Source: Apostichopus japonicus
Taxonomy: Eukaryota; Echinodermata; Holothuroidea; Aspidochirotida; Stichopodidae
Assembly (NCBI RefSeq): GCF_037975245.1
Contig: NC_092579.1
Span: forward strand, 4,860,001 to 4,924,000
Direction: 5' to 3'
DNA: 64,000 bases
How positions within the stretch are numbered: the stretch's first letter is position 1; the number at the start of each line of letters is the position of its first letter. Shown one piece after another: positions 13,525-56,700 of this stretch. Under the pieces are notes generated by a model. It saw nothing but the letters and a program-made list of their open reading frames with translations. It was not told the origin of the DNA and ran no database searches. The translations under genes were made by a program, and so were the position numbers.

Positions 13525-13612
13525 CGTCCATGGCCTGGTTGGTTGGGGTGTCCGCGTACAAAGCGGGAGGCCCGGGTTCGAATCCCGGTGGAGGCTGGAA
13601 GTTTTTTCACTG
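13525..13612 (+). mobile_element. tRNA-like SINE head
   Basis: TGGCCTGGTTGGTTGGGGTG resembles an A box and CCCGGGTTCGAATCCCGG is a perfect B box and T arm. The acceptor stem does not close, and a TA microsatellite follows at 13642. A SINE or tRNA relic rather than a functional tRNA. Confidence 0.6.
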
Positions 13613-17951: not shown

Positions 17952-18000
<49 letters not shown>

Positions 18001-18015
18001 TATATATATATATAT

Positions 18016-18058
<43 letters not shown>

Positions 18059-28200: not shown

Positions 28201-31200
28201 ATATATACCTGATCTGTAAAGGGACGTATGAATGGGTTGAGGGTGCGGGGTGGGGGTGGTTAACACACCCTCCAGGCTCGCACACATAAATAGTTTACAA
28301 CCTTGTTAAGTATAAGCGTCTACTTATTGTAAAGTACATTGCTTTTGTGGCGAATAGCAACTTTTCCTTGCAAGATCTTCTCGACCGATTATATTTCAGA
28401 TTTGCTTGAGGCGGGGAGGGGAGGAAGGATTAATCAAATACTTTTCCACTATACACCCCTTACTATCCCCGGTCGCAAAGCACTCCACACACCCATAGGC
28501 ACAAACTGTGATACAGACTGGTATATAGTGTGTATATGGGGATTTTCAAAGTTTAATCAACTCTTGTTTTTAGTCGACTTTGCCTTCTGTCAAAGTAAAC
28601 CAAAGAGCTTTTTTTTCTTATCTAAATTAACTCACATTAGAGTCTTACGATAACAAATCTTTTACAGTGTCTTACTAGTCCAAACAAACTCTATAGGTTA
28701 TCTGGCGTTATTATAAGTTTTATCTGGTTTACACAATTAGCGATGGATGCTATTTAAATACCATTTTATTAAGGCTTCCAAAATATTTATGTTTTTCAAC
28801 ACTTCAAAGCTTAACACATGATATACAATTACTGACTCATCGATTGATATGAGCTGATCCCTGTTTATAGTTTATAAGACTGCAAAGGCCTTCGCACCCC
28901 CCCCCCTCCTCCGGGACGGTGCGTCGCTGGCCCCCAATAATGCACACTTTCCCTTACGTCACAGTGGCCTATATGTTAGGGGGTTAAATACACTATCCTG
29001 ACCCTGTAATATCCTTGGGAAAAGGAGGCGCCAATTTCAGGGATTCTGAAGGCATGCCGAGAAAAGGGTTACTGATGGGGTACTAGGGCCCTGGGATATC
29101 CTGCTATAACTCCAGGGTCTCTTACTTGACCCAGGGCCCTAGTCCCCCATCCGTAACCATTTTCTCGGCATGTCCATACCAGAGGAGATTCTGGGAAAAG
29201 TGGATAGGCACACGACATTACAAGGACAATTTTGAAAGTGGCTTTCAGCGAAGTCAATTGGTTGTGATTCTGTTATTGTTGACCTATACGATCTTACAAG
29301 CCCTTAGAAGTGTGAAATTGCTATCAAACTCAGGCGCGTATCCAGGGGGGGGGCGTTGGGGGCGCGCGCCCCCGGGTAAGAAGAAGAGGAGAGAAAAAAA
29401 AGAGAAGAAAAAAGAGGAAGAGGAGAGGAAGAGAGGAAGAGAGGAAAAAGAAAAAGAAGAAAGAGAGAAAAAGGAGAAAAGGAGGGAGTAAAAGAAAAAC
29501 GCCAAGACACCTGGAAGAGAAGGAGAAACAGTGACATCATTACAGCGCTGAGCCCTATTATATACACAGGGTAGCCAGTGACTGATCAAGGATTTCGGAA
29601 GGGGCGTGCGCCTCACCCTACCCCTAACATCGTCAACTCCATTTTTGACGTTTCCATTTTGTCCTCTCTCAATAATGTATATGTACATATATACTATTTA
29701 TGGTCTATCATAACGCGTGTGTGTGTATATGAAACCTGCTATGAAACCAACTGTGGCTGGTCTCGAACTCGACTGTGTCGTCGGGGAACATGACGCATTT
29801 CGGGAAGGGGCGACTGCCCCCACCCCCCCCCCCCCCCCCCCTTGAGCATATTTTTTATGATATCGTTAGTAATTTCAAAATAAAAAATGCTTAGATGAAA
29901 CTTACAAGGCCGGGGAAGTGTCATTTCCAGCGATTTGGGAGGTATTTTCGGCCAAAATTTGCTTGTACGCTTCGCGCCAACAAATGGTCCTGGGTAGTGC
30001 CATTTCCAGCGATCTGGGAGGCATTTTCGGCCAAAAATTTTCTTGTACGCTTCGCGCCAACCCATGGTGGCGCTACGCTTAGATAGTTTGCCAACAGGCT
30101 TCGCCCCTCACTTGGCAAACTCCTCGCTACGCGCCTGCTCAAATTTGTAAAGCAAACAGCAGATATCACATTATATCAATGAGCATGAAAATGGTGTTAC
30201 AAGATGAACAGCCTCAAAACTGTCTATGTGTGAATTCATGGGCGTAGGAGCCCAATTTGATTTGGGGCTGTAACGACTTGCCCGAAAAAAATAACCAAAA
30301 ATTTTCGCAAGCTCCGCGCGCGTTCAATATGTTAATGTCAATATCATATAAGCCAGCATCGGTTATTACATCGTATGCCATCGTGTACCTTACAATCCGT
30401 GAAAGTTGCGCAGTATACCGCGGGATGCTAATGTAAACAACGAAATGTCTTATATAGATGGGTAAACCTTGAAAAGTGGGGCTGACAGGTATTGTGGGCC
30501 GCGACGTAGAATCACCTACACAAGCAATGATCCACAGGACATGCGATAAGGTCGAACATGATTTGTGAATGGTGACAATCTTAAAAAAGGTTATCGATAA
30601 AAAAAAAAAACTGTTGGGAAATACTTGGTTCTCAGGCAAAAGTGTACATCTGGTTGGTCATTATTACTGAGAAGTGCCATTTCCGGTGATCTAGGGGGTA
30701 TCAAAACCAAAAAATTTTCTTGTACGCTGCGCGCCAACCGATGGTGGCGCTCCGCTTAGATAGTAATTGGCGCCCCCCGGATCAGAAAATCCTGGATACG
30801 CCCTTGAAACTACTAAGCCGATCAAACTACTAAGCCGAGGCCCCCTGTGTGGCCTTAAGAAGGTAGTACATGGCGGTACATGCTTAAAAGGGTGTGAAGA
30901 CTCTCGCACAAAGAAACGTCTTAGACACCACCATCGATCCCAGAAAATACACACACAGCTTGCTACCGTGGGTAATTAGACACTAGTGTACAGTCAATAC
31001 ATTCAGCTACGGCGTATACCCACAACACAGTGTACATAGCAGCGATGGACATCTCAGGTCTAGATACACTTGATAACAAGGTATCACTTTTCATTACTGT
31101 CTGCATTTTGTAGCGACAAGATGAAAACTTCACTTGCAAGCAACGGAAAGTTAACTTTTCAGAGCGCGGCACGCGGTTTGAGGCGAGTCTTCGATGCCTT

Positions 31201-34200
31201 TAAACGACGTTCTGCTGCCCAGGACCCAACCTAATGAACCGCCTACAAGGTGTTTTAATGAGATTCAGGGGAGCACCCTGTAGCCTTTCCAGTGACATTG
31301 AATGCATGTTTTATCAGGTGAAGGTGCCAGAAGCTCAAAGAGACCTGCTAAGATTCCTTTCGTGGCCTCAAGAACACAGGACTCAGATGCCGAAGTCATA
31401 TCGCATGGGAGTTCATTTATTTGGATCTGTGTGAGTTTCAAAAGGGACGTTTCACTCGGAGAAGTGGTCTAATCTTAATTCTACGATTGACTGTAGGAAA
31501 ACCCCGAATGAACCATTTTCTCCGATTAACGATGGAGGAAAAGCTATGGCTCCTCCCCCTCCCCCCCCCCCCCCCCGCACCACGCTCCTTTGCTCTCTCC
31601 ACTTTCGCATGCTATGGTTGTTTGGTGACGGGTTTAGGTTGGTCACGGTGGTTAGTCCGGTTGATGATTCAAAATATCTAGAAACGGTGGTAAGGGACCT
31701 TCAATTTCCTCTCACTGTTTTTACATCCTAAATTTAGACATTAAAACGTTCTCCCTTTTTCCTTTCTTTACACCTGACATATCACGCAATATGCTCTCCT
31801 CTCTCTTTCAGCAACTCGAGACACGTTTGATATTGCCATAGCAATGATCAGTGGTATTCGACCCAGGGAGATTTCAGCCTTACATTTTCTTCACTATTCT
31901 AGTATGGCCGGAAGCTTTGAAAATCTCTTCGAAGCTGACAACGGAGGCGCGCAGGAATGGAAGGTGAAGGTAAGGTCAAAGGTCACACGAAAAAGCATTA
32001 ATTAACATATCTTACGGGATGTTCGGGGGCATATATTACTTCCGTAGGTAGGACACAAGTAATTAAAAAAAAACTATCAGCATACAGAAAAATGATATTC
32101 GGGGCATATGAAAATATATATATAGCTTACAAAAATACGGCAAAGTAAATGCCTGAAGATGAAAATGTATTTCGCTACTGGCTTATGACGCCAATGCAGT
32201 CTCATCGAACATATCACAGTGAACAAATGAAAGTTAACAGAGGCTAAACATTTTAACGGAAATATATGAAGAACATATGGTATCAGTCATACTCTAGCTT
32301 TTCGGAAAGGGAGGGGTGGGGCGGGAGTTGAACACGCCAGTAATTATGAGGGGCGCTTAGCATACATCGAACAGGGCCTACGTACCCATTATCGAACCTT
32401 CATACCGGCCAAACTAAATTGTCTACTATATGCGATTGTTTGAATAACATTCAAGATGGCGCAATACGCCAATATTTTTCTTTAAATATCCGTAGCTCCA
32501 AAAGCGCACGCGCGAACGTGCTTATCAAATACCATATGTAAATGTTTGTGTCTTTTTCAGGGAGGGTTACAACAAGTGTCCGAACTCTTAACAGATAAGA
32601 TCGGTAAAGAGAATGTCATACTGTCTGAACCTGTGAAGAGTATTGATCAGACAGAAGAAACCTCAGTTCTAGTAACATCAGAAACGGGCCAAAATTACCG
32701 ATGCAAATACGTCATTAATGCGTCACCACTGCACTGCTCTGGTAACTATATGATTGTTTCATTTCTTTCATTAGATTGTATTGTTAAGTAGCATGAAAGT
32801 TCTTGTCTTTTATCTATACCATTTTCATAATACATGCATCCAGTTCCCTACCCAGATGTGGAGATTGTGGTGTACACCCTTTTACAACCCACGCAAAAGA
32901 CTAAAAGTACCGTAATTATTGGCCCACCATTCTGTGCAGAACTAATTATAGATCAAATTTATAGCCTCAAAATGCCTCAAAAATGCATCATTTCACGTGT
33001 ACTATTTTATTGTTGTCTGGGAAAAGGACCCCCATACCCACTCCTCTTATAAGACGATCCCAAAGGCCAATATCTTCTCCTTGTAAAAGTACGGAATCCG
33101 CCCCTGACGTCATCGTTACACGAAATATGCAGAATTCGTTATTTATATCTGCGGGTTCGTTTACGCTGGGTTGTAATTTAAACCATATTGGCACACAATA
33201 TAATACACCTCTCAATATTGGCCATTGCTATAAAAGATCTAGCTGGTATACAACCGTTTTCTTACTCGCATGAACTGGCTGAATATTTCATCCAATGCCT
33301 CTGAGAAGTTCGACAGATTTACTGACCTGCTTCATTCTCTCATTTGCAAATGTTTAAAATTCATGACTAATTTATCGTCCACTGTGCAAATTTTAGGGAG
33401 TACGCAATTCAGTGGTAAGAGAGTTGATGTCATTTTGGCATAAAACCATCTCTTATAGTATGATAACCTGACCGACTCCCACCGCTCACCCGTACGCCCC
33501 CTCCCCTCACCCAACAACCACCACTGCATGTCAGTCCTGATATGTGCACGTGTTTAATTCCCGCTTGAGGTGCAACGGCCAGATTTTGACTCGTTGATGA
33601 AAATGATATTAAATATATATATGTATGCGTCATGAATTTATCGAGTTCCAAAATTAATTAAAGACAACTTTAGCTTTCTAAATGTTACTAACACTTACAA
33701 AAGTATGGGTCCTTTCTTTCCAAATCAGACATTTATATCTGTTTAATCAGACAAATTAATTTTTTAGCCAAGGAATCGTCAGCTGTGAGATTGGCATTAA
33801 AATGATGAAGGAAATTTGACCATTATTTAACCATTATTTGACTTTCTAGCACATTTACGACCAAAACTGATTACCTTTTAAAGGGTGTGAAGACTCGCGC
33901 AAAATGAAACGTCTAATGCCGGTAATCTGACCTAGTTTCGAATGAGGTGTCACAGAAGTCTTAGACACCACCATCGATCCCAGAAAATACACACACAGCT
34001 TGCTACCGTCGGTAATTAGACAGTACATATCAGTCAGTACATACAGCTGCGGTCAATACCCACAGCATAGTGTACAAAACGATACAGCGATGGACATAAC
34101 AGGTCCAGCTAAAGATAACAAGGTATCACGTTTCATTACTGTCTGTATTTTGTAGCGACAAGAGAAAAACTTCACTTGCAAGCAACGGAAAGTTAACTTT

Positions 34201-37200
34201 TTAAAGATGGCGGCACGCTGTTTGGGGCGAGTCGTCAATGCCTTTAAGCATAATATGTGCAACCGTGGATAAAGATTTTTTTTATGTAATTGCCATTTGT
34301 AGTTGCTATGGACTACAAGCCGTCCATTCCTCTTACTCGCCAGTCTCTTGCCAATCGTTCGCCTGTTGGACACTTGTTCAAGTTCATCATTACCTACAAG
34401 AAGGTAAGCACAAATTGACCTTAACTGTAACTTTCCTAAACAGTAACTACAATGTCACAGAAATGTAGACAATTACTTAGCATATTGGCTTACATCTTCA
34501 GTTTGTAAGAAGTTACACATAAGTATATGAAAATATCAAATGAATGTATTAAAGCGGTTTATGATATTTCACATTGTATGAAGTATTTTGTGTTTCATTT
34601 GTGTTCAGGCATTTTGGCGAGAAAATGGATTTTCTGGTGAAATACTAGGTAACGGCGGCGCCCCGGTAATACCCGGATGCGATTCTGGTCCGATTCAACT
34701 GATATACGATAGTGTAACTGGGTACGGTAACCCTGCTTTGGTTGGATTCTATGCAAACGCCTGGCAGTGGAGACTAGTCGATGTAAGCATGCATGCATAA
34801 TATAATCTATGTGTTATACGAACTGAAGTACAGAGTTATATCGTTCCTCATGCAACGGGATCTAGGCATGAAGGCTTCTGAAGTTACAGTTTATGATATA
34901 TTAACATATATAGAACCTATATTTATCACCATCTTCATATTCAATCTGCGAACATTCCCAGAATAGCTTAACTTAATTTAGCAAGGTCGCGATATAGTAG
35001 AACTGCACCAATATCTTATACAGGTATCGGGCCATGAGGCAGTTAGTTTTACGATCAAAAGCGACCACGTGGGAGAAGCCCGCAAGGGCTTATGTATTAC
35101 AACTTTAACATTTTAACTCAAATTTGGAACCTAAACCTTGAGTAGATTGCATGTGTAGTACACCGGTGACATCATCGCTAATTAGTGTTGCATATTCATA
35201 ACTCAACTCACATATAGGCGTGGTCTAGCTCTTAGTTTAAGAGCCGTTCTTTTTAAAAAATGCTTTCAAAGTTTTACGGCTTTTAAGCCGTTTCCGTTTT
35301 AACAAACTATCGCTGTCATTTTCAGTCATTAAATGACATATTTTATCCATGAACAACACGGTGGTACATTGCGAAAACAAAAGGAAAAACATAAGATCAA
35401 AATTGAGGGCGTTGTGGTCAAGTGGTTAAGGGAACTTAAGGCAGTGGACTTGTGATCTAAGGATTGCAGGTTCGAGCATATATATATTGCAGGTTCGAGG
35501 TGTATAAATGGGGACTTGCGAGGTAACTTGTAAATATAGTTGTGTGCGGCGGTTTGTGGCTGCATCCTATGGTCCCCGCGGGGGACACGTGGTTGTGGTG
35601 CACTGTGGTGCCCCAGGAGAGATTGATTGAATTGTGCACACTTTGGTGTGTAGGTGTGACATGTTACCAATGACCAGGGTTAAGTTGTAAAGTCGTGTGA
35701 GAAGGCCTTGGCCCTGAACAAGACAGGTAAACCTTAAACTTTAAATTAAAAATAAAATTATATGATGTACTTCCATTTGCGAAACGCAAGCACTTAATCC
35801 AAACGTTTGATCTTGGTTTCATTCGGCTGAATGGGACCGAAGTGCCTCTAAGCTGAGGTGACGGAGGGTCCGCCTCTTGCAGTGATCACAAAAGTGTTAC
35901 CGGTATATCGTTTCATCCTCCGAGCCCCAACTACGCAGCTTGTTTCCATATTTTTATAATTTATCAAGAAAAGAGAGTTAAGTCATTCGAAGAATTTCCC
36001 TATCATGTTATTTTGCAGCTCGAAGTGAGGAAAGCGTCTGTGTTGAAGCATCTGACAGAGTTTCTTGGTGAAGAAGCAGCCAACCCTATCCACTTTATTG
36101 ATAAGGTATCAGCTGCATGTAGTCAGCTAATTTTCATAACATTTCGTAACTTCTAAAGGTTTTTTATTTGCTCGAAATTCTTAAATTTTATGTTCATAAG
36201 TTCGATACAAAATTCTCACATACAGCCAAAGGTAAAGTTTATTTCGGCGAGGACGTGTGGAGCTTCAGTGGAGGAGGAAGAGGATATTTCCAAAGCTTTT
36301 CTTCATTGCACACATACCCCCTCCTCCTCCCCAAGCCCTTCCCACATGTTGCGCATTCGTTAAGCGTATTCGCCATGTAGTCAAATTGAGCCGGAAACTT
36401 CGATATGTTAATAATATAACTTAATGAATAAAAATATGTTTGCCCATGTTCCACCTTATTATCACAGTTATAGGCTTAGTAATTGCATGAGCATTTCATT
36501 CGAAAGAAAAATGCTTACCCATGATCGATCAAAAGGATGTATTTTCTTTCGTATATACATACGACACAAACACAAAGCATTTCCTATATAGATGAGTTTT
36601 GTTAGCGGGGTTTCCAGGATAGTTGTGTTTCATCTATATACTACCACAGTAATACATAAAGTTTAATTTGATACATGAAGGAAAAATGTATTTCAATGAA
36701 ACAAAAGAAATCTGGCATTTAATTCACATTATGTCCTTCACAAATAATTAGGGAGAACATTTCCTATGGATATCTATATGAGCGAAGGGATATAGATAAT
36801 TGGGTAATGTTGTATTCATCCCGTGGACTACTCCCTCCCCTATTATTCTTTTACTGATAGGATTGGACGATTGAGCCATTTAACGGAGGATGTCCGGTTA
36901 ATACAGCCACAACAAGTGCTCTTTCGTTCTTCTTTGATGGCATACGCACTCCACATGACAGGTATATTTGTATACATCACTTCCCTAATTCGCTTGAATT
37001 TTGATTAAAAAAATATTGCAGCGTGTTACCAAGTTCTGTCTGATATCAATGATTACATTCCTTCTCATTTCATTATCGACCATCTTATTTATAGGTCAGA
37101 GGTCAATTACGGGTCCGACTTTGGGGACGATTGTTGATTCCATGTTAGACTGACCACTTTCCGTTAAATATTTCTCGTAAACCGTAGTTATATAGAGCAA

Positions 37201-37748
37201 AAAGAAACAAGGGTACCGCCGAACCCTGTTTGCAATACAATAGAATGATACCTGATGATAATGTTAGATTGGGACCTTGCAAATTTACTCAAGTATTCAC
37301 AAAAACACACAGTACCTCCTTTCTCTTCGCACTTACCGGTCAAATGAACCTATAAATTTAATGGAATTATAAGTTTTATTTGATGAGTGAAGGACTTGTG
37401 ATCAGACGTCCCCAGACAAGAAATGGTAATATGAAATGAACAAATAGTCTGATCCATAGGTATGTTTAGTTTTTTGTTTTGTTTCACTGCAGAGTCCACT
37501 GGGCCGGGACAGAGAGCGCGACACAGTGGAATGGATACTTAAGCGGTGCAGTACAATCCGGAATGAGGGCAGCAGACGAAGTTCTCACTCGTTTAACTCC
37601 TGAAATAAAACTCGACGGTCTGCTACAAGAATTAGATAACAAATTTCCCGAACCTTCTTCTAGCAGTGTAAGAGGTGCCGTTGTTATGGTTGCCGGTAGT
37701 GCGATGGTAGCAGGGTTATGTATGTTCATGTATTGGTACCTGACATAG
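22220..37748 (+). CDS. Flavin monoamine oxidase-like protein, 11 exons, 517 aa
   Basis: Exons: 22220-22337, 24426-24513, 24975-25149, 27560-27674, 31812-31969, 32561-32741, 34303-34403, 34609-34782, 36019-36105, 36861-36961, 37493-37748 (TAG). All junctions are GT/AG and phases total 518 codons. The chosen ATG gives MTERESD followed directly by the FAD-binding VVIIGAGIAGLTAAYR (GxGxxG, residues 12-17). Further family signatures are LGGQWV, FWRENGFSG, the buried lysine K305 in GHLFKFIITYKK, the flavin-linking region NGGC (C410), and WAGTESATQWNGYLSGAV near the C terminus. The last 26 residues form a hydrophobic helix ending MYWYLT, matching the outer-mitochondrial-membrane anchor of MAO-A/B; length also fits (about 520-527). 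Oxidative deamination of amines is expected. P411 follows the cysteine where human MAO has a cage tyrosine, so substrate range may differ. It is head to head with the beta-lactamase-like gene. Confidence 0.92.
22392..22858. mobile_element. MITE with 51-bp perfect inverted ends, MAO-like intron 1
   Basis: The first 51 bases (22392-22442) are the exact reverse complement of the last 51 (22808-22858). CACGCC directly abuts both sides, a possible 6-bp target duplication. The interior holds about four tandem copies of a 22-bp unit containing TATTCGAATTAATACG (22640-22735). Superfamily unknown. Confidence 0.85.
23228..24332. mobile_element. hAT-like element in MAO-like intron 1
   Basis: Left end TAGTGACGTAACCAG; right end, inverted, CAGTGGCGTAACCAG (13 of 15). 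Flanks TAACTTAA (23220-23227) and TAACTTAG (24333-24340), 7 of 8. A long G tract follows the left end. It stops about 90 bp before exon 2. Confidence 0.7.
25579..26210. mobile_element. hAT-like element in MAO-like intron 3; sister of 8512-9173
   Basis: Ends CAAGGGCGGTGGAA / TTCCGCCGCCCTTG and a perfect 8-bp duplication TTATAAGG (25571-25578 and 26211-26218). It is highly similar to the inner element of the nest along its whole length apart from poly-G tract changes. Module at 25695-25792, with a TIR-like TACGCCGCTG end at 25830. Confidence 0.9.
26219..26460 (-). mobile_element. tRNA-derived SINE, family A
   Basis: On the minus strand it starts GTGTTAGCTCAGTGGTTAAA (A box) and continues CCCGAGTTCGAGTCACTCG (B box). 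The body ends in CGCGAGTTCCTGCTTGCAGG and a TACA repeat tail (26219-26237). It abuts the target duplication of the hAT-like element 25579-26210. Two more copies are at 59231 and 62203. Confidence 0.85.
29331..30137. mobile_element. hAT-like element in MAO-like intron 4 with a doubled module
   Basis: Ends CAGGCGCGTATCCAGG and (inverted) CAGGCGCGTAGCGAGG; flanks ATCAAACT and CTCAAATT agree at only 6 of 8. A 110-bp polypurine run (29379-29491) lies inside. The hairpin module is present as a partial plus a full copy in tandem (29908-29984, 29988-30086). Confidence 0.7.
29379..29491. repeat. Polypurine GA/AAG tract
   Basis: About 110 bases of nearly pure A and G on the plus strand, inside the hAT-like element 29331-30137. 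Long ORFs here are artefacts of the tract. Confidence 0.9.
30237..30340. repeat. Terminal fragment related to the 2340-3258 element
   Basis: It starts CATGGGCGTAGGAGCCC and continues with GTAACGACTTGCCCGAAA, the reverse complement of the right end of the 2340-3258 element. The other end was not found. Confidence 0.6.
30669..30806. mobile_element. Right-end fragment of a module-bearing hAT-like element
   Basis: A full hairpin module (30669-30763) is followed at 43 bp by a TIR-like end GGATACGCCCTTG. No matching left end or target duplication is found, so the element looks truncated. Confidence 0.6.
30884..31203 (+). mobile_element. TTAA-flanked inverted-repeat element, copy 1 (internal deletion)
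   Basis: Same family as 33878-34247 but lacking about 50 internal bases near the left end. TTAA ends it at 31200-31203, directly against a BEL/Pao fragment. MAO-like intron 4. Confidence 0.65.
31203..31440 (+). pseudogene. BEL/Pao-type reverse transcriptase fragment
   Basis: Reading from 31203, the frame encodes LLP and then, after a one-base shift, GPNLMNRLQGVLMRFR, followed by DIECMFYQVKVPEAQRDLLR, FLSWP, YRMGVHLFGSV. These are the conserved blocks of BEL/Pao reverse transcriptases. Only about 75 residues remain, in MAO-like intron 4, with no active-site YxDD block. A dead remnant. Confidence 0.75.
33878..34247 (+). mobile_element. TTAA-flanked inverted-repeat element (piggyBac-like?), copy 2
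   Basis: It begins TTAAAGGGTGTGAAGACTCG and ends, inverted, TTAAAGGCATTGAAGACTCG, so TTAA flanks diverged inverted repeats. This is the fullest of three copies. It ends 56 bp before exon 7 of the MAO-like gene. TTAA targets suggest piggyBac, but the terminal bases are not typical. Confidence 0.65.
35050..35110 (-). repeat. SINE family D, 3' fragment, MAO-like intron 8
   Basis: AAAGCGACCACGTGGGAG and GCAAGGGCTTATGTATTACA resemble the segment at 3408-3462. Confidence 0.5.
35406..35735 (+). mobile_element. tRNA-derived SINE, family B, MAO-like intron 8
   Basis: GTTGTGGTCAAGTGGTTAAG is an A box and TTGCAGGTTCGAG a B box, the latter duplicated around a short TATATA insertion. The body (GGTGTATAAATGGGGACTTG, CCCCAGGAGAGATTG, GGTGTGTAGGTGTGAC) recurs inverted at 55117-55345. 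Confidence 0.8.
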
Positions 37749-41712: not shown

Positions 41713-44700
41713 ATGGCGAGGGTTCAGTTAAGTCGTGAGTTTGCATTGGTAATGTTATTAACAACTTTGAAGATGCAAGCAGTGCAATTGGAACGGAGTT
41801 CAACGGGAGACTCGAGGCCAATTATAGGTACGCTATATAGTAACTCTAACTTACATTTAAGAATATGATTGTCAATAGGCTTTATGTGATTGAAAACAAG
41901 CAACTAGGTTAAGTTAGGCCTAACGTTAGGCTTGGCCTAATTAAATGTAGTCTGTACATGCCCCAAGCTATAGCTTGCTAGAAGTTTTCAAAACGTACAC
42001 TCTTGGAGGTCTTTACTCTCCAAATTGCTCTCAGACATTTTTATGAACACACAAGGTGTTTGAATGTCCCAATGATAAAGTGAGGTGAAGTTCCTCCAGG
42101 GTGATAACAAAAATAGTTTAAGAATTTTGGGCCTAACTTTAGAATCTGTACCATATGAATGGCAAAGCTTACGAATCGGCAGAATAAGGTTAGGGGTTAG
42201 GAAGTAGGGTTAGGAAGTATAGGGTTAGGGGTGTAAGGCTTATTTTAGGTAGTTCGGGAACGGTAAGCCCGGCCTTACACTGATACCGTAGAACCGAGCG
42301 TGAAACGTGAAATAATCAGGAAAAACGGGTACTGCATAATATATGTCTTCTTTTATTGATTCAGGATAAAACTGTAACTTGTAACTTTAGATAATTAAAA
42401 TGTAAAGAGCCCGAAGACTACAGACGAAAATATAAATAACGGAGCCTACTGTACTACGAGATAAACTTCAACTCCTCGATAAATCTTTAAGAAACACTTA
42501 AGCCCCTGATTCCAAAATAACAAATTAAGACGCGTTGCACAGGGCACACGCTCTGCCCTTGAACCCGATTGGTGTAAACTTTTAACTCACCCCTTACCAA
42601 ACTCTTGATTGGTTGAGTGCCAACCTGATATGCAGATGAGCATATGCAAATGGGCACTCAACCAATTTGAACCAGTTTGGCTGTCTTCCAACCCCGAATC
42701 ATTTAAAACAAAAGATACGCTTCTAATAGTGCGTGATTTATATCCCGCCACACCACAGCGCAAACCACCAATGCGCGAGCCATGGGTGACGTCATAATGA
42801 CAATAACTAGAATACGCTTCACAATAACAATAACTAGAATACGCTTCTCAGGGGTTAGGAAGTAGGGTCGAATGGTACAGATTCTAAATTAGTACCGAAT
42901 TTTGACCAAAGGTGACCATATTTAAAAAACTGGCATATTTGGGGCCAATACAGAATACCATAAATACAAATGGGTGCTTTTGCAACAAGGCCTGTTACCG
43001 CTACTGCATGTAACACTAATGGTGTAATGTTAATAACTTAAATCCACTATATGATTTGGACATTTGTTATCCTAACACAAAGGCCATCCAGGCATACTAC
43101 AGTAAAGCCTAGTCCTAATACAAGTCAGTGATGCTCTTTTCTTAGTAACTGCATACATTATTATATTGCTTTGAGTATGGGGAGGGGTTGGCGTGCAGAA
43201 CAGAATCCCTTTCCATGAAACTTTGTAGAGTCTCTCCAAGCTCCCCAGTTGGTTGGTTGCGTCGGTAACATTGTACAAACCCAAAGTGTGCGCATGGTGC
43301 TATAGAAATGTGGGAATGAAATCAGTGTGAATCCTTTAATTGCAAGGTGGCACAGTACTATTATGCAGCTCTTATTAAAATCTCACATGTTTAGTTTAGT
43401 TTAGTAGAAAAAAGGATCAGGAGGACACTTAAGTCCCCATCAAGGACCCTATAAAGAGAGGGAAAAAACTGAAGACACAAACACTCAGACCTGATAACAA
43501 TGCTTAAAGTGCTTGTCCAAAGCATTCTTAAACCCATTGACACTACTTGCAAGTACAACTTTCTCAGGCAAACTATTCCACTCATTCACAACCCAATTAG
43601 AAAAAAAGTTATGCCGAATATTAATCCTACTATGCGACTTTTGAAGGTTAAGACAATGACCTCTAGTACAACTACTGTTTGCAAACATGAAAAAGTCGGT
43701 AAAGGATAAATTGTCGAAACCATACACAATCTTGAAAACCTGGATCAAGTCCCCACGTAACCTCCTAAGCTCCATTGTGGTGAGATTCAACAGTTGTAAC
43801 CGCCTATAATAAGGAACCCTCTTTAAGGAACTAATCATCCTAGTAGCTCTCCTCTGGACCTTTTCAAGTACTTCCTTATCCTTAGCAAAATAAGGGTTCC
43901 AAGCCTGCACAGCATACTCCAGATGAGGCCTAACCAACTGCTTAAAAAGCCTACGATGTCCTCTTTCAGAAAACTGAAGTTCCTCTTGATCATACCTAAA
44001 ACCCTATTACCTCTTTTAGCAGCTTCAAGACAATGCTTGGAAGGTTGCAGAGACGAGTCAATGTAGATACCTACAGTAGGTCTCTTTCAACAGAGACCTC
44101 CTGTAACTCCACACCATTTAGATTGTATGTAAACTTTTGGTTACTACTACCAATGTGCATTTATCAATATTAAAAAGCATTTGCCACCCCTGAGACCAGG
44201 AAAAAATCTTATCTTAATCCGCTTGAAATTTCTCAGAATCGCTTTTGGAAGAGACCTCAAAATACAATTTGGTGTCATCAGCAAACTTCTTAGCTGTACA
44301 CAAAATATCTCCGTCGATGTCATTTATGGTTTTATTAATGTTTTATTCTTGCAGTCGACGCATAAGTTGACGGCAAGAATTGTTTTTGTAGGTTTATAGA
44401 CATTAAAATAACTGGCCTTTGCTTTTTTTCTTCATACAGGTATTCTGACTCAGACAACAGAACAGAGATCTATCAGCAAATTTGGACGATCATTTATATC
44501 TGCATCTTACGTCAAATTGATGGAGTCAGGAGGAGCCAGGGTTGTGCCTATATTTGTGAACCAAACAGAAGATTATTACAGGAAGATGTTTAATTCTATA
44601 AATGGGTAAGTTAAATACCTACATGTATCTTTATCAGGGAGGTGACAGTTATACAACTTATTTTAGAACCTCCTATATCTTTGAACATGGGTAGTCATCA

Positions 44701-47700
44701 TTATTACTACTTTCGTATGCACTATACATAAGGACTATATTATTATCTATTTCCTGACGAGGAAGATGGGAAATCTTCGAAAACGTTTGAATACACTACT
44801 GTCACCCACAAAAAGAATGCAAGTGGCAATGCGACACATTCGCCTAGCGGCTATCCAAAATCAATATGCAATGTAAAAAAGAAATACTCCAACCAACTAA
44901 TGATGCAGAACAAGTTTTATAAATTCAACTTCTTAAGTGAATAGGTATTTATTGAGGAGGAACTTTCTCCTTAAAATAATAAAAAAAAAGGAACATGCAA
45001 AATAAAGGTTACAGCGTTCTGTAATACTGCTTAGGAACACGTAGGACTCCTGAATACTTAGAGATAACAGATTGCTTTGGCGCAATCTTTACCAGAGGAT
45101 AACATATACTAGATTTAGCTTAACTACTGAAAAGGTTAAGACTTTCCAAAGTTTTGATACCCCTGGATCTTTTTCAATTGCGAGAGAGCAAACTGGCACG
45201 TATAAATTTAGTCTTAATATATATTAATTGGATATTCTTTTCTCTATAAAAGAATGAGATTACCTCTTCTAGTCTGAAGAGCTTTCCCCCCTTTACATCA
45301 TGAAATTCTGATTTAACATTTATCTAAAAAAAAAAATGAGTTCTGAGTTGTCACTATGACGAATATTGCCTAAAGGTGTTGACAATACTTGTTGACACGT
45401 GGTTGCTGATATCAGGTTGTGGTAGGTGTTATAGTCGGTGATAAAACTATCCTCGAAAGCTTCCGGTCTTCGACCCAATGTGAGAGGAAAGTGGCAAATG
45501 GTTCCAGTTCTTAAACTGTCAGACGAGCTCTGCAATACAGCTTTACTTTATCCGGTCAGGTGATGTACTTCCATCCCAACTCTGCCGACAAGCTGCCCTA
45601 TCCAGAACACTAAATATTGTGTGATACTGGAATCTCCAGGGAAAAATTGTGTTTCAAGCTTTCACAGTTAAATGCCAGATATTAATTAAAGTATGCCAGC
45701 CCAGGCTTCAATACAGGTATCCTATATATAGGATCCTGTGCCCCATGATATGAAAATCACAATATTGTAGCTCCGTCTTTTTCAGCTAAGAGATATAGCA
45801 GGACTCAATCCGATGATGGTATTTTGGAGAGTGAATAAAAATCTTATCCAACACTCACTTCACTGGCTGGATGTGATGTCACACATAATTAATAGTGTAT
45901 CAATTTGCATAACTTGGCAATACAATACATTGTCATCTTGACTATGTCCTGCCCTGGTAGGTTTCTTTTGTGTGCACTAGCTATGCTATGCTACCCTGTA
46001 CCTTTGTATTATTATACTATGCCCTGACCTGGTGATGTTTCTTTTGTATACATACTCAATTATGCTACCTTGTATTTCTGTAGTGAATAGAGGGATTAGG
46101 GTTTATGTAAATTGTCCTACATCCTTGGATACTACTTTCCAACATCAACAACAACCAGCATTGACTAAAGTAAAAGTTACTAAAAAAAAACTTTCTAAAA
46201 TAAACAGCTGACAGATTGACTTCTTCTGTCATACAAATACAAATTAACTAAATTATACTATTCTAATGTGACAATTAACTCCCTCCTTTAATAAAATGTG
46301 TCTAACACATTTATACACATCTCACATTAGGATATTTGTTTCAGCCTATCCTGCACTGAAATCTCCTTCAATTTCCTCTGCTTCTCCCTAAGCTTCCTGA
46401 AATCACACATTTCCATACACTATTGGAAATGAATTTCTTACAGCTCTTTGCTGATGAAGGATAAGAAATTGGCTTGCATTATTTCTGTACTTCTACTCAA
46501 GTAGTCAGCCCCTACATTATCGGCTCCCTTTATCACTTGGATGCGGTAACGATATGGCTGTAATGCCAGTGCCCACCTCATTATCCTTCCATTTGCCACT
46601 TTCGACTTCCGAATGCATGTCAATGGTTGATGGTCTGTCTCTATTACAAATTCCTTGCCATAGAGATATGGCTCAAACTTGAGTACAGCCCAGACTACGG
46701 CCAAGCATTCTCTCTCCATCACTGAGTATCTCATTTGACTCTTGTTCAGCTTTTTGCTAGCATAGGCTACTGGAAATTTTTCACCTGCAAACTCCTGAAG
46801 AAGGATCGCACCAACTCCTGTATCCGAAGCGTCTGTCCGAAGTGTGAATTCTCTGTGGAGGTCGGGGAGCTGAAGTATCGGTGAGCTTGCAAGCTTACTC
46901 TTCAGTGTTTGGAACGCCTGTTCCTGGCTCTCGCCCCATCTAATCACGTTTGGTTCCCCTTTCTTTGTACAGTTAGTCAGTGGTACTGCCACGGCTGCGA
47001 AGTTTGGTACAAACTTCCTGTAGTAACCTACCAACCCTAAGAATGATCTCACTTGAGTCTTTGTAGTTGGTCTCTCTGCTTGCTGAATGGCTTTAATTTT
47101 GTCAGGTTTGGGCTTTACTCTACCTTCTCCTATAATATGTCCTAAAAATTCCACCTCATTGTACCCAATGAAACATTTTGTAGGTCTAGCCGTCAAGTTG
47201 GCTTTCTTGATTCTTGTGAAGACTTCTTTTACTCTCTGGAGATGTTCCTCCCATGTCTGAGTGTGTATCAGGATATCATCTACATAACTATGGACATTCT
47301 CAATTCCTTTAAGAAGCTTCCTCATCACTCTGTTGAATGTAGCACCAGAATTCACAAGACCAAATGGCATCATATTGAACTCGTATAACCCATCATGAGT
47401 CACAAATGCTGTTAATGGCTTCGACTCTTTTGCCATTGGGATTTGCCAGTAACCTTTGCTCAGATCGATTTTACTGAAGTAGCAATCCTTGGATAACTTT
47501 GCAAAAATCTCTTCCTGGTCTGGAACAGGCTCAGCATCAAACTCCGTGATCATGTTAATTTTGCGTGTGTCGCAACAGGCCCTCAAAGATCCATCCGGCT
47601 TCTTTAATGCTACCAACGGACAAGCGTATGGACTTTTGCTGTGCGATATTACGCCCATCCTCAGCATACTTTGGATCTCCTTGCGGATATCATCTCGAAG

Positions 47701-50700
47701 AGCATGTGGTATTGGATAAGGTTTACTCCTTATAGGTGTTGTATCGCTGACTTTGATGACATGTTCACCGAGCTTTGTCTTCCCCGGTAGGTCAGTCAAA
47801 CTGTCTTCAAACTCTGTCAATATTTGTTGTACCTGTTGAGTTTTTGTTTTTCCTAATTGTCCGCTGATATTCACATCAGTACTTCGCTCCTTCTGAAACA
47901 TAGGTGGAAGATGTATAAGATCATCTGTGGAAAATGATTTGAGTTCAGATATACCAGATTCCTCTTGTGGTTCATCTTCTAGAACCGATGTGCAGACAAC
48001 TTCATACATACTTTGTATTGGCATCTCGAACATAGTGGCTGCCACTTCACGTCTGTTATATTTCTTTAGCAGGTTGGCGTGAAATGTTTTGACCCTATGG
48101 CCAAAGTCTATTTTGTAGTTCATTGTACCAACTTTCTCCACTATTGGAAATGGTCCCTTCCACTGCATAAGTAGCTTGTTCTTATCAGTGGGGAGAAGGA
48201 GGAGGACTTCTTCTCCTACTTTCATGTTTCTTACTCTTGCTTTCTTGTTGTAGTACGTTTTGTACCTTTGTCTAGACTTCTTGATCTCCTCACGTGCTAG
48301 TTGACATGTTTGCTCCAAACGTTCCTGTAAGTCCAACACGTACTGGTACACAGTCTTCGTCTCACTTACTTCTGATTCGCCGGTCCATAATTCCTTAAGA
48401 ATCCGCATAGGACCACGCACGGTCCGCCCATATAGCAGTTCAAATGGCGAGAAGCCTGTGCTTTCCTGTGGCGTTTCCCTGTACGCAAACAGTAGGGGAT
48501 CTATATATCTGTCCCAATCTTTAGGCCTTTCATCGCACATCTTCTTTAACATTGCTTTCAATGTGCCATTAAATTTCTCTACCAACCCATTGCACATGGC
48601 ATGGTACGGAGTCGTGGTTAATCGGCGAATTGACAATAATCGGCTAACTTCTTTCATGACGCCAGAGACAAACTGAGATCCTTGGTCAGTTAATACTTCT
48701 TTTGGGAAGCCTAATCTTGAATAAATTCCAAGGAGTTCCTCAGCTACTGACTCAGCTTCAATGGTTTTCATTGGTACTGCTTCTGGGTATCTAGTTGCGT
48801 AGTCAACTAAAACCAATATGTATCGATGTCCACGCTCTGTGGCTGGCTTGATCGGTCCTACTAAGTCTACTGCTACCCTTTGAAATGGTTCTTCAATCAG
48901 CGGCATACTTCCTAATGGTACTTTAGTAACACGACCTTTAGGGAGGGTTCTTTGGCATACATCACACGACTGACAATACCTGGTAACGTCTGCTTGCATT
49001 CCAGGCCATGTAAAGTCACTCATTACTTTATCACGCGTCTTTTTGGATCCTTGATGACCCCCTAGAATCGATTCGTGTGCTACCTTTAATACATGATCTC
49101 TGTAGTCAACTGGAACTACTACCTGCCTAAATCTGTTTCCAAATTCCACTCGAGGAGAACTAAATTCTCTGTAGAGAATGCCACTGGACTTCACATATTT
49201 ATGAGTACTCCCATTTTTACTCACTTTATCATCTCCTGTTTCGGCTAACTGTCTGATTTTTTCCAAGGTGGGGTCCTGTTGTTGCTTTTCACGTAGCATG
49301 TCTGCAGTAACCTCTTCACCAATCGGGGACGATACCTTTAACTTTTTAAAGGGCTTCTCTTTTGCTTTGCTCTGACTCCTTGTCTGTGCTGCGGCAACTG
49401 TATTTGGGTCATCATCATTCCTTATTGCCATAGGCTTGGTTACATTTGGTGGTGGTTGTACTGGTTGATCCTGTGTCTGTGACTCTTCCCAATTCGGGTC
49501 TGGATTGGTAGGTTCTCGTACACCTGGGACATTCCCTAGAATTAAATCATAGACTGGATCATTCATACACAAGGCCGAAACTGAACCTGAGAAGTATGGA
49601 GTATCCACGAGTATGTTGGCAACGGGATATTGTCGTACCGTACCGTCAATCAGGATGCAAGTTTTAACGTCACCTGTCATTTGGCTGGGCTTGACGTACT
49701 GAGATCTTACAACTACACCACTGCATCCACTGTCCCGTAATACTTTAACACTTTGATTCCCTATCTTACCCATTTGAACAGGCATCGACGATAAATTCTG
49801 ATCTTTACATGCGGCTGTAACTTGAGTCAATACAGTTAACTTGTGACCACAGTCTAATGTGAAGAATCCCTTCTTACTTGCTTGGAATAGATGAGGATCT
49901 GGCTTTACCATCATGAATGCCTCAATGTCTGTACATGCACCGCCAGTTTCCTTTTTGTCTGGAAGGTTCTGTTCGGTCAAAGTTGAGGCGCGTTTCTCCA
50001 TCATGTCACTAAATACATCTGTCATAAGAGCCATGGTTTGCATTCGCTTTGTCCTACAGTCTCTTGCAAAGTGGCCTGGTTTATCACAAATATAGCATTT
50101 CCTGGGTTCACTTCTCTGCCCAGAATACGTTTTCCCTTTCTGATTTTGTTGCTGGAACTTCTGATTGTGATTGTGGAATCTTCCGTTGTTACGATTCTGG
50201 TTCCTCGTGGAATTACTGTTTTGAGTACTTCTACTATTCTTGGAGTGACCAGGATACCAACCTCCATGTGCTTCTACATATTGATCGGTAAATTCACCCA
50301 TTGTTGTGATGTTCTTCGGCTTTCTTTCTTTCAGAAATGTTTCCAAATCTTTGCTACATGAGTTCAAGAACTGCTCTCTCAATATTATGTCTTGGAGTTG
50401 TTCATAAGTAGTTACTTCCTCTAATTCCATCCATCTATGGAGATAATTCTTTAATTTTGTGACATACTTGGTTCCTGTATCTTCATGTGCAGGTCTAATA
50501 TCACGAAATTTCTTCCTAAAACCATCGGCTGTAAGGTGGTATGCACGTAATAAGGCTTGCTTTACCTTGTCGTAATCTTTGGAATCCTCAAGTGAAAGTG
50601 ATGAATATTCAAACAATCCACAACCTTGAATAAGTGCTGAAAGACTTGTGGCCCATACAGTATCCCTATCCCAACCTTGCAATGTGGCATAACGTTCAAA

Positions 50701-53700
50701 TCTATTGATATATGCATCAATGTCGTCTTTCTCTTGGTTGAATGGTGGCAGTTTAGGTGGTCTACTTCTTGCTGCACTACCATTACCATGATAACCTCCA
50801 TTGCCTATCTGTGCTTGTGCCTCAGCTTGGGCTTGCTTTGCTTCTTCTATCTTGAGTTGTATTTCTAACTGCTTTGCCTTTTCTCTTTCTATCTTTTCTT
50901 GTCTCTGCCTATCTTCTTCTTGTTCGTGTGCATCAATCGCCCTTTGCTTAGCTCTTCGATCTCTTTCTTCATCTCGTTCTTGCTTAAGCTTGTCCCTTTC
51001 ATCATCTAAGAATTGTTTTAGTTCTACACCTTTGAGACCTAACTTTTCTCCGATTGACACAAGTTTTTCTAACTCTAGTTGACTAGTCATGACTAATGTA
51101 TAACAATGACAATGTATTGAAACCAATTACTGATGCCTGCAGTTTAGTTTAGAGTGCGCGCAATTTATAGTTACATCCGACAACAATGTAATTTCATATC
51201 ATAGGTAACACAGTTGTACGATTAAACAACAATGATACACTAATTGTGTAAGTGGATTTCACGTCTGGCATAAAACATGTAAAATACAAAACACAATTAA
51301 CTACTTGCCAACCAACATTACGTTAGATGTTGCTTCAGTTCTTGTCGGGACCGCCAGTAAGACGCTAGAATGGAAGTACACAGGTAGACCGACCAAATAA
51401 GAGCTGCTCTTGCGGAATTCGTCTGCGAATACAAGTAAATACAAACAATTAATATACATATAATTCACAGGTTGAATTTTATGACACCAACCAGTTATGT
51501 ATTTTTCACTTCTGTCAAAGAAAATGCTTATGCTTAAATCTTGGATAGAATTCCCGGATAGGCCCCCATTTAATTGTCACCCACAAAAAGAATGCAAGTG
51601 GCAATGCGACACATTCGCCTAGCGGCTATCCAAAATCAATATGCAATGTAAAAAAGAAATACTCCAACCAACTAATGATGCAGAACAAGTTTTATAAATT
51701 CAACTTCTTAAGTGAATAGGTATTTATTGAGGAGGAACTTTCTCCTTAAAATAATAAAAAAAAAGGAACATGCAAAATAAAGGTTACAGCGTTCTGTAAT
51801 ACTGCTTAGGAACACGTAGGACTCCTGAATACTTAGAGATAACAGATTGCTTTGGCGCAATCTTTACCAGAGGATAACATATACTAGATTTAGCTTAACT
51901 ACTGAAAAGGTTAAGACTTTCCAAAGTTTTGATACCCCTGGATCTTTTTCAATTGCGAGAGAGCAAACTGGCACGTATAAATTTAGTCTTAATATATATT
52001 AATTGGATATTCTTTTCTCTATAAAAGAATGAGATTACCTCTTCTAGTCTGAAGAGCTTTCCCCCCTTTACATCATGAAATTCTGATTTAACATTTATCT
52101 AAAAAAAAAAATGAGTTCTGAGTTGTCACTATGACGAATATTGCCTAAAGGTGTTGACAATACTTGTTGACACGTGGTTGCTGATATCAGGTTGTGGTAG
52201 GTGTTATAGTCGGTGATAAAACTATCCTCGAAAGCTTCCGGTCTTCGACCCAATGTGAGAGGAAAGTGGCAAATGGTTCCAGTTCTTAAACTGTCAGACG
52301 AGCTCTGCAATACAGCTTTACTTTATCCGGTCAGGTGATGTACTTCCATCCCAACTCTGCCGACAAGCTGCCCTATCCAGAACACTAAATATTGTGTGAT
52401 ACTGGAATCTCCAGGGAAAAATTGTGTTTCAAGCTTTCACAGTTAAATGCCAGATATTAATTAAAGTATGCCAGCCCAGGCTTCAATACAGGTATCCTAT
52501 ATATAGGATCCTGTGCCCCATGATATGAAAATCACAATATTGTAGCTCCGTCTTTTTCAGCTAAGAGATATAGCAGGACTCAATCCGATGATGGTATTTT
52601 GGAGAGTGAATAAAAATCTTATCCAACACTCACTTCACTGGCTGGATGTGATGTCACACATAATTAATAGTGTATCAATTTGCATAACTTGGCAATACAA
52701 TACATTGTCATCTTGACTATGTCCTGCCCTGGTAGGTTTCTTTTGTGTGCACTAGCTATGCTATGCTACCCTGTACCTTTGTATTATTATACTATGCCCT
52801 GACCTGGTGATGTTTCTTTTGTATACATACTCAATTATGCTACCTTGTATTTCTGTAGTGAATAGAGGGATTAGGGTTTATGTAAATTGTCCTACATCCT
52901 TGGATACTACTTTCCAACATCAACAACAACCAGCATTGACTAAAGTAAAAGTTACTAAAAAAAAACTTTCTAAAATAAACAGCTGACAGATTGACTTCTT
53001 CTGTCATACAAATACAAATTAACTAAATTATACTATTCTAATGTGACAACTACTATGACTTTCATCAACTGTTTCGTTTTATTTTGTTCGTTTATTTGGT
53101 TCTACTGACCAAAGAAGTGTTCCTGCTTCTAGAATTCTCTAGCACAATAAACTTATACTGAGAAGTACTGGGGATTTGATCGCCATATTCAAGGATTTTT
53201 TATCACCTGATTTATTCTGTTCAATGCTGCCTCTCAGCGTTCACAATCCTTTTGCATACACAACTGGTTGTCTGTTTAATTGTCTGTTCATTCATACTTA
53301 GTAAAGATTCCTAAATCCTATTGGTCCATTCAGGTCAGCTGACCGTGGTTAATCCTGTGAGTAACGCAAGGTAAAATTACGGGGCATCACTTTAATAAAT
53401 CTTTGGTTATATGTAACCAAAAATGTTTTGTTTTATGATTTTTCCCCCACACAAATGGTAGTGTATGAATGAACGGGGTTAATCAACGGTCTAGCGTGCG
53501 TTACTCACATGATTAATGCACTCCGGGTGTTAATGCTATCGCTGGATGCACTCGGGCTCCGCTACGCTCCGCCCTCGTGCATCGCTTGCATTATCCCCCG
53601 ATCGTGCATTAATCATGTGAGTAACGCACGCTAGACCGTTGATTAACCCCTTATTTAAATTGTATTTTTTACTGCACTTATGGGTTACACATCTTAAACG

Positions 53701-56700
53701 TGTTAAGGCATAAATGTGTAATGCCTGGTAGGAATTGTAGATATACTTCCACAATTTTGTCCGTATATACTGTAAATGCCCTTCCTTTGCCCTATTTCAT
53801 TGCCCTATTTCCCGGCAGAGAGTTATATTAAACAGATATGCAGAGGATTGTGCAAGTAACTGCAATGTAATCCTGATTGTAATCACGATTACATTACAAT
53901 GTAATCGTAATCGATTACTTCAACTTTAGGCTGTAATCGTAATCGTAATCATACATTCTCAAGTAATCGTAATCGATTACATTCAGATGTAATCGCCCCA
54001 AGCCTGCTTATAATATATGCTGACATAAAGTACAGATGTTGCTATTGTTCTCATGCTTTTTTGTTTTATTTTGTTTTTTTATTTGTTTATTTTTGTGGAA
54101 GTACCATCCTGATGATGTTTCTAATGTTTGCTATTTCATTTGTTTTCCTTTAAGCATTGTTTTTCCTGGTGGAGGTACAAAGGTCTTTGGTACCCAAACT
54201 GGCATTGGACGATCAGCTGCTTACATGTTTGAATATGCAAAGGAGGTGAGGTCTTAAAATGTTAACTTGCACACTAATCTTATCATTTCCAGTATTTTTA
54301 ATAGTTTTTATTTTATTTTATTATATTTAATTTGCATTTTGTCTCAGGCTCGTTGGAATCAATTTGAGACAGTGTCGACTGTCTCCCTTTCCACAAGTCG
54401 TGACTAAATTACAGCTTTAATTTTGTCTTCATGATCAGAAAGAAAAAAAAAACCATGTAGTGGTACAGTTTGAGGCAAAACTGTCTGTTCTTGATGTGCG
54501 ATGTATTCAGGAAGTTAACTATATTACCTCCATGTGAAAGAAAGGACGAAGATACTATCTTTAATAGAAAGATAGTCTGTTTATAACAAACTGCTTGTCT
54601 AAGTAAGAGCTAATAATAGGTTCTATGTAAAATTTAGGGGGTCTAGCATGTCAGTCTGATCAGAATCTCCTTCAAGGGTAGTTCGAACCAGTTCTGTTGT
54701 GAAGAAGATCTGCGAGGATGGAAATATTAGGCCCAGTCACCTTTGACATAAATTGTTAATCTTTTACAAGTCATTACCAAAATGAAAGTTTTAGTGTCGT
54801 CTTTTACATGATTTGAATAAAAATCTAGTCGATTATATTATCCTGTAAAAACTGTGACATTTAAGATCCTTCCTTGTTATATACTTCTAAGAAACTCTGC
54901 AAATTTAACCATTTATCTTTTGTGTTTCAGAGCTTTGACAAAGGTGACTACTTTGTAGTTTATGGAATCTGCTTTGGCTTTGAACTTTTAGCTATGTTAA
55001 GAGATGACTTTTCCTGTCTCACCACTAATTTGTCAGCAAGTGACATCAGCCTACCATTAAATTTCACTCAAGGTGAGACATCTTAGTTGGTATTTAATAA
55101 TTCTCAGTTCTTATATAGCGCAACTTACAATAAAGTCTTGCCGTGCTGTACTTAACCCTGGTCATTGGTAACTTATCACACCTACACACCAAAGTGTGCA
55201 CAATTCAAATAATCTCTCCTGGGGCACCACAGTGCACCACAGCCACGTGTCCCCTGGTGGACTACCCATAGGGTGCAGCCACAAACCGGCGCACGCAACT
55301 ATATACAAGTCACCTCGCAAGTCCCCATTTATACACCTGGGTGAATTTACACAAGTACAGTATTGCAGCATTTAGAGTTTCAAAAATCTATTTGTATATA
55401 TCTGAGTAGCTGTTACATGTATGCCATGGTGTGTACTCCTAACCTAGCATCTTATGTACAAAAATTTATACTTTTCTGCAACAACAGCATTCAATTTCTA
55501 TAGGTTTTATTCATCTTTTTCTGTGTACAAGATCCTTACTGTTCTTGGCAGAGAAAAACCCGTGGTATATATGTGATATCAACAAAGTAGGTAAAAAGTG
55601 AATTTATCTCCATCTCAAGGATGGCCGTATAAATGAACATCATGATAAGTTAGTTTGTAGGTGTACTCCCTGGTGAGTACCAGAACTAAGTTGTTTTTCA
55701 TAAAAGATTAAGAATATAATTACCCTTTCAGAACAAATGAAAGCACACTCCTTCAAGCATTCCTGTGAATATTTCTGCAGGCCTACAAGGTCATATAGTC
55801 CACCCCCCCCTCCCACCCTCTCTTCGGACACCCATGCACCCTTTAGTTATGTATCATTCTAACTATTTTACCTTTCCAGGTTATGAAAAGAGCAGAATGT
55901 TTGGGAAAGCTCCTGAAGATATAATTTCTATACTTTCCACACAAAATGTCACATTCAATGCACATAGAAAGGGCGTTACAACAACAGTAAGTACTTTCCT
56001 AATACTAAGACTGACTAAACCGTTTGTCAACAAACAAACAAAAATCTTTCATGTGTATTGCTGTCTAATCTGCAACCTGCACCACCGATGTTATCTTAAG
56101 GAATTCTAAAATGAATAAGTAAATGTTTGTGTCAGAACCATTTCATAAGAACAAACTGTTGTCTTTTAACATCCAATGTTGCTTTTATCAAATGCTAGGT
56201 TGTTCTAAAATAGATGGAAAAGAAAGCATATCATTATTAGTTTACTTCATAAAAGAATGAATCAACGTAGTGTTTTCAGTACAAACCACTTAATAAAATA
56301 AGATAAGCAAATATTAACTATTATATTACCATTCTGTTTCTCTCCACTTTTTATCAGACATTCAACCAGAACCATAAGTTAAACTCCTTCTATCAAGATC
56401 TTTCCACAAATAAAGACAAAAATGGTCAGGAATTTATATCTTCCATGGAAGGTAAGTCATTACTGTATAGCTCATGAAGCGTCATAGATTATCAAATTTA
56501 GGAGGGTAGATCATGTGTGCTTTGTAACATGTATGTATAATGGAATGGCATGGAATGTAAATCATTACAAAGTGTAGCCCAGTGATGTACGTAATGCTTC
56601 CCTATGTAATACTTCCTACGTAATGCTTCCTAAGTAATGCTTCCTATGTAATGCTTCCTACGTAATGCTTCCTAAGAAATGCTTCATAAGCAATGCTTCC

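Follow-up and report, generated by a model that had tools for sequence, protein, structure and literature searches.

A retroelement that is copied through RNA should quickly shed any intron on its sense strand, and the locus described here raises the question whether one family of such elements has kept an intron within its long terminal repeats (LTRs) while single copies lose it. The stretch analysed, hereafter the window, comprises 64,000 nucleotides of the Apostichopus japonicus genome (GCF_037975245.1, NC_092579.1, 4,860,001-4,924,000; contig 19 in the numbering used here) and holds, at window positions 44800..53048 on the minus strand, an 8249-bp Ty3/gypsy element with a Gmr1-like domain order. 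The original prediction had described this element without stating its strand, and had not recognised that a longer form of the LTR exists, of which the window LTRs are the shorter and apparently intron-less counterpart. This matters for how typical of its family the window copy is and possibly for its mobility. In our view the element is very probably a young, coding-intact Gmr1-like retrotransposon, in whose family a spliceosomal intron distinguishes the two LTR forms, intron-less copies arising time and again when spliced RNA is reverse transcribed.

Two states of the long terminal repeat

The genome searched amounts to 671.6 Mb in 35 contigs. With the window LTR as query 55 matches were obtained (best 40 of 110 candidates scored), some of full length and others split at LTR position 778. 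The split LTRs, here termed type B, hold an additional 520-528 bp at LTR position 777/778, which starts with GTAAGT and ends with TTTTGTTCCGATACAG; a search with this segment gave 40 matches (best 40 of 45 candidates scored). Its ends read CATT/GTAAGT and GATACAG/TGCC in all 14 type-B LTRs, which stem from seven loci. The LTRs lacking it (type A) show the junction CATT/TGCC in 25 of 25 cases, the window's two included; 24 were identified by a 13-base motif, and in the type-A LTR of C12 one base is altered to the left of the junction. Genome-wide, the intron-less junction occurs at 35 places at up to three mismatches, the reversed control at none. In the window element the presumed splice scars lie at 52271..52272 in the 5' LTR and at 45496..45497 in the 3' LTR (both on the minus strand), where type B carries the segment of about 528 bp. 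This segment has GT...AG ends, a consensus donor and a pyrimidine-rich acceptor, as a spliceosomal intron would.

Among the matches listed, 20 copies bear a reverse transcriptase (RT), nine of them with the short LTR (window copy included) and eleven with the long one; the count is a tally over the LTR, segment and RT searches, the last of which is blind to LTR state. Hereby, the frame is open end to end in eight of the nine short-LTR and nine of the eleven long-LTR copies. The internal regions of the compared pairs are equal in length (about 5300 bp), and the LTR-LTR distance is about 6775 bp in short-LTR versus about 7300 bp in long-LTR elements, a gap for which the segment accounts in the main. 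Both LTRs of an element agree in state in 19 of 19 pairs, of which 17 are flanked by exact 5-bp duplications, the remaining two matching at 4/5 (C20) and 2/5 (C19) bases.

Matches to the segment, at least 40 in number, range from 100 down to 79% identity, and a 79.8%-identical copy retains CATT/GTAAGT and AATACAG/TGCC; the segment is thus old in the family. When 16 further intron-bearing loci were checked at fixed positions, the donor was present in 12 and the acceptor in 13; C5d, C19d and C16f, being truncated or interrupted, are unscorable at these positions, and C17d has the acceptor without the donor motif.

Two trees, of 37 and 43 loci, were built from LTR sequence outside the segment; each pair is represented by one LTR, and the tandem copies C4b-d of C4 are absent from both. 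The larger one also omits C1o4 and C1o5 (whose flanks equal those of C1o3), the chimera C1o2 and the short C20o; L048 (C6) is in neither tree, and L118 served for the splice sites only. On the 43-locus tree, with 20 loci lacking and 23 carrying the segment (a ratio that is not a frequency, as the loci were drawn via searches favouring one or other LTR state), 16 state changes are found versus 14.5 ± 1.7 for shuffled labels, and on the 37-locus tree 11 versus a shuffled mean of 11.5; the distribution of the two states is thus no more ordered than that of shuffled labels. By loss only, the larger tree needs 18 events, by gain only 20 independent ones, and nine small mixed-state groups, some of them nested, have support values of 91-100.

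Probable origin of the intron-less copies

A TATA-like box at LTR position 544 and an AATAAA at 1321 suggest that transcription starts upstream and ends downstream of position 777, which would place the segment within the R region. In LTR elements a single strong-stop cDNA, templated by the 5' R-U5 of the RNA, determines both LTRs. Since the template of minus-strand strong-stop DNA is the RNA 5' end, splicing the 5' R once would suffice for a new copy to lack the intron in both its LTRs. We infer this removal from RNA from the exact and recurrent loss of the segment. Intron-bearing copies would then form the lasting lineage, and intron-less ones, the window copy included, would keep arising from spliced RNA. 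One chimeric LTR, L110 (G000 C1:13736350-13737890), reads U3, exon 1, intron (1-276), exon 1 (657-777) and exon 2, with the spliced junction, and shows short homology at its joint. Such a product would be expected if spliced strong-stop cDNA switched to an unspliced template, and L110 may represent a fossil of strand transfer.

Alternatively, a single loss of the segment, or a few losses, could have been followed by shuffling of presence and absence among copies through template switching between co-packaged RNAs. In favour of this, the left and right LTR trees conflict and L110 would itself be a template-switch product, yet mixed sisters are also found in a tree of the 696 bp directly right of the segment (C16x/B_C1e 96, C10/B_C1 97, C12/B_C16d 94), and at least one exact GT..AG loss is still required; we therefore consider this course of events unlikely, if worth keeping in mind. 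Far less credit can be given to the notion that the LTR originally lacked the segment and that some copies gained it by insertion. Although intron-less copies occur at every depth sampled, down to about 82% identity, the segment is homologous throughout and occupies an identical LTR site in every copy read, down to 79% identity, so that repeated loss is far likelier than the 20 gains otherwise needed; moreover, no duplication flanks the segment. An exact deletion without splicing, for example by an RT jump between short repeats, is just as improbable: jumps of this kind do occur in the family, as L110 indicates, but the two ends of the segment share no word (CATT/GTAAG, ATACAG/TGCC), and yet the junction is identical in all 25 intron-less LTRs.

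Repeated loss through spliced RNA, our preferred explanation, has to be weighed against several observations that count against it. The exon side of the donor reads ATT/GT, unlike the common AG/GT. In 11 older copies the two splice-site windows contain 4 substitutions in 384 cells compared to 221 in 5224 (4.2%) in the remaining intron; this favours our reading, but the test of conservation is a weak one, as 5% of random intron windows equal it. The young group is poorly resolved, and the left and right LTR halves conflict in places; recombination is thus at work, and 18 losses is an upper-end count. Furthermore, the older group C1o3 + C10o (support 100) is intron-less throughout, and with regard to classification the SCAN, Retrotrans_gag and SH3_Tf2-1 scores given below are all under the Pfam curated cut-offs.

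It is conceivable, though doubtful, that the LTR intron sorts the RNA: spliced RNA would serve mainly as mRNA and unspliced RNA as genome, packaging or expression would need the intron, and intron-less copies would leak out and seldom if ever give rise to lineages. Such a role would fit the scatter of the LTR states over the tree, the open frames in both states (17/20), the splice sites preserved at about 20% divergence and the 16 ATGs in the 528 nt of the intron versus 15 in the 1383 nt of the spliced leader (start assumed at LTR position 576). The intron-less-only group C1o3/C10o, on the other hand, speaks mildly against strict sterility, and the intron showed no unusual RNA fold (z -1.1), a lead that was rejected.

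Some LTR loci show further peculiarities. In LTR alignment columns 579-663, just past the TATA-like box, the young group and C3/C20 differ at about 17 positions in 85 bp; C3/C20 resemble the old C2/C12 there and differ by only 1-2% elsewhere, which suggests a swapped promoter-proximal block. At G000 C4:1827643-1840211 (L012-L014) two solo LTRs sharing a CATGA duplication are followed by a full element, at a spacing of 2161 bp, pointing to tandem duplication of a host segment after insertion or to an assembly effect. An intron-bearing LTR-internal-LTR-internal-LTR tandem, bordered by one CACTG duplication, lies at G000 C18:14542145-14558747 (L036-L038). Three old intron-less LTRs at G000 C1:17134880, C1:17232060 and C1:21446560 (L113-L115) have the same flanks and correspond to a segmental duplication of one insertion.

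Anatomy, classification and genomic setting

The 5' LTR of the window element (51575..53048, minus strand; TGTCAC...GTGACA, type A) and its 3' LTR (44800..46273, minus strand) show 0 differences over 1474 bp, which limits their divergence to about 0.2% (95% upper bound, rule of three). On both sides the element is bounded by an exact 5-bp target-site duplication, GTAGT/ACTAC, reading ACTAC on the plus strand at 44795..44799 and 53049..53053. The primer binding site TGGGGGCCTATCCGGGAA (51551..51568, read from 51568 to 51551 on the minus strand) begins 6 nt past the LTR and is an 18/18 complement of the ends of host tRNA-Pro(TGG) genes plus CCA. The corresponding tRNA end pattern occurs at 77 genome sites, 47 of them exact and the others with one mismatch (backwards-pattern control: 14), and ARAGORN called tRNA-Pro at four of four tested loci. 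A polypurine tract, AAAGGAGGGAG, lies at 46279..46289 on the minus strand. All four features, which had been named in the original prediction, could thus be confirmed and identify an LTR retrotransposon; a chance origin of this anatomy is excluded by the 19 further near-identical RT copies in the same genome. Judged from its sequence, the element is coding-intact and, as the identical LTRs and exact duplication also suggested originally, very recently inserted.

A single Gag-Pol frame of 1550 codons (46438..51090, minus strand) runs from the ATG at 51090 to the stop at 46438; the 1562-residue open reading frame listed for this region begins at an upstream TTG. The domain order along this frame is Gag-CCHC-protease-integrase-RT-RNase H, all on the minus strand, with Pfam profiles having been run on six separate pieces of the protein. 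The C-terminal part of the Gag capsid (50344..50520; Pfam, PDB) is SCAN-like (SCAN 1.1e-5, 25.6 bits, cut-off 27; Retrotrans_gag 0.002, 18.7 bits, cut-off 24.1) and is followed by a CCHC zinc knuckle (50053..50103; motif, zf-CCHC 1.6e-6). The integrase comprises an HHCC zinc-binding domain (48946..49116; PDB, motif, Integrase_H2C2 1.1e-19), a DX59DX35E core (48577..48867; PDB, motif, rve 3e-9) and an SH3-like tail with a GPF motif (48139..48165; motif, SH3_Tf2-1 2.9e-5, 24.6 bits, cut-off 30). Downstream of it lie the RT with its YVDD motif (47131..47604; PDB, motif, RVT_1 6.7e-14 and 9e-12) and the RNase H (46552..46938; PDB, RT_RNaseH 2.6e-37). The protease is the weakest structural claim: the DSG motif reported before is there, together with ILG, at 49528..49750, so that a putative protease can be assigned by motif only, the frame giving no Pfam match for it and a best PDB match of only E 0.75. 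Single-sequence protein folds were too weak to use (predicted local distance difference test, pLDDT, of 53 for the capsid and 36 for the protease), and a Foldseek search with the weak capsid fold (pLDDT 53) yielded no match.

Assignment to the gypsy type is supported by the matches of RT, RNase H and integrase to gypsy models and Ty3 structures: in the PDB the Ty3 chain 7q5b ranks first for the integrase (2.8e-25) and second for RT-RNase H (1.7e-77), behind 4ol8 (8.7e-78). Membership in Ty1/copia was considered and rejected on the same RT and integrase matches. No relative turned up in the viral and prokaryote contigs scanned; the DNA pattern for YVDDILIH occurs in three viral contigs, none of which is homologous to the element's pieces. 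SCAN chains of PEG3 (3.4e-4) and ZNF24 (5.7e-4) are the top two of 21 PDB matches to the Gag capsid segment, and no Ty3 or Arc capsid chain is among these 21 (a single Gag being compared). A SCAN-related C-terminal part of the Gag capsid has been linked to Gmr1-like elements (PMC4592553, PMC3424704). Together with the domain order, this segment, the one clade-specific sign testable here and 1.4 bits under its Pfam cut-off, supports the previously proposed Gmr1-like affinity.

Could the integrase-first order merely reflect a standard gypsy element scrambled by assembly or rearrangement? Nothing was found in favour of this, and the RT and integrase searches (best 79 of 1828 and 116 of 1717 candidates scored, so that family counts are lower bounds) make this extremely improbable. 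At least 20 near-identical full RT matches, window copy included, were found, each of the 20 with an integrase match upstream and 17 of them in a frame of 1562-1564 residues; one broken RT copy lies on contig 15 in two pieces (97 and 82%). Among all 80 RT matches listed, 75 have a same-strand integrase match upstream, none has one downstream and five have none within 3 kb, and L105 and L106 read integrase then RT without stops. Hence, integrase-first elements have radiated in this genome, other such families showing RT identities of 38-62% among the matches listed. As far as its sequence tells, the window copy is an ordinary member of its family.

Concerning the genomic setting, a gamma-glutamyl hydrolase exon on the plus strand (44440..44605, followed by the donor GTAAGT) precedes the insertion and the next exon of this gene follows it (54155..54245, plus strand; by eye, end approximate). 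Both are bounded by GT and AG splice sites, and the element, about 195 bp from the exon, thus lies antisense in a gamma-glutamyl hydrolase intron. Adjoining the gamma-glutamyl hydrolase exon, a frame at 43488-44003 on the minus strand, which gave no Pfam match, looks by eye like the terminal part of an RT from a non-LTR retrotransposon. Elsewhere in the window we noted exons belonging to a flavin amine oxidase gene (22109-37745, plus strand) and to a beta-lactamase-domain gene (16272-18254, minus strand), as well as a gene called as tRNA-Cys with an unusual ACA anticodon (13523-13597, plus strand), which may be the head of a short interspersed element. Outside the window, contig 35 starts with cox1, with nad4L and then cox2 (by eye), AAA standing at Asn and AGA at Ser positions, a gene order and code that fit echinoderms, and cox1 pieces recur at repeated positions in G000 C29:14745-31219, which may be a mitochondrial concatemer or a nuclear copy.

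Relation to known elements and meaning

The Gmr1-like set includes Gadus Gmr1, pufferfish Gmr1-4 (PMC11117352), Saugg1 and GyRex4/5 (PMC3587641) and the annelid LGF3 (PMC8220671). The group, its order, its full-length young copies and its broad animal range are already known: contrary to what had been stated, the group is not confined to deuterostomes but extends to crustaceans (PMC3587641) and an annelid (PMC8220671), and the value placed on the window copy as a full-length live member was overstated given the published pufferfish elements (PMC11117352). Like the Gmr1-like elements named above, the present one has the integrase before the RT and occurs in young copies. With pufferfish Gmr (PMC11117352) it shares the single Gag-Pol frame (1506-1634 residues there, 1550 here), an internal length of about 5.3 kb (about 5.4 kb in pufferfish Gmr1, 6465 minus 2x518) and the apparent lack of env, which is unlisted there and for which there is no room here between stop and 3' LTR. 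In contrast to pufferfish Gmr1-4 with LTRs of 337-518 bp, the LTR here measures 1474 bp without the intron and about 2001 bp when it is present. Two LTR states differing by an apparent intron are unmentioned in the accessible accounts of Gmr1-like elements, and what appears to be new are these states and the intron, not the integrase-first order.

An intron placed in this way has few counterparts. Penelope-like elements are retroelements with an intron inside terminal-repeat sequence, but they are not integrase-coding gypsy elements and follow another copying route; they are among the nearest parallels. In foamy viruses, acceptors lie far downstream of the R donor, whereas here donor and acceptor are both within the LTR, so that splicing would change only the leader and in a manner heritable by both LTRs. 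Common to the two is a donor located in R and ahead of the primer site, in foamy viruses the major splice donor (PMC3185757); such retroviral R-region donors are the other near parallel. As in intron-tagged Ty (TyH3; PMC12786077), which served to test for an RNA intermediate, the intron would be precisely lost on reverse transcription of spliced RNA; unlike that laboratory insert, it would be a natural LTR intron, apparently lost repeatedly. No published account of an intron wholly inside the LTR of a gypsy element was found, most subscription literature being outside the search and absence thus not proven; the accessible parts of PMC12786077, PMC6771403, PMC4256276, PMC4558846, PMC3386233 and PMC3185757 do not describe one.

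If our explanation is correct, each intron-less LTR would be a record of a spliced RNA having been copied, and splicing, strand transfer and lineage success would be readable from the genome sequence alone. A family that keeps an LTR intron while single copies shed it would further imply that the element depends on the intron in some way. The finding also carries a warning, as an open frame and identical LTRs alone do not mark a master copy: should the intron indeed sort the RNA, an intact-looking element such as the window copy may be a dead end.

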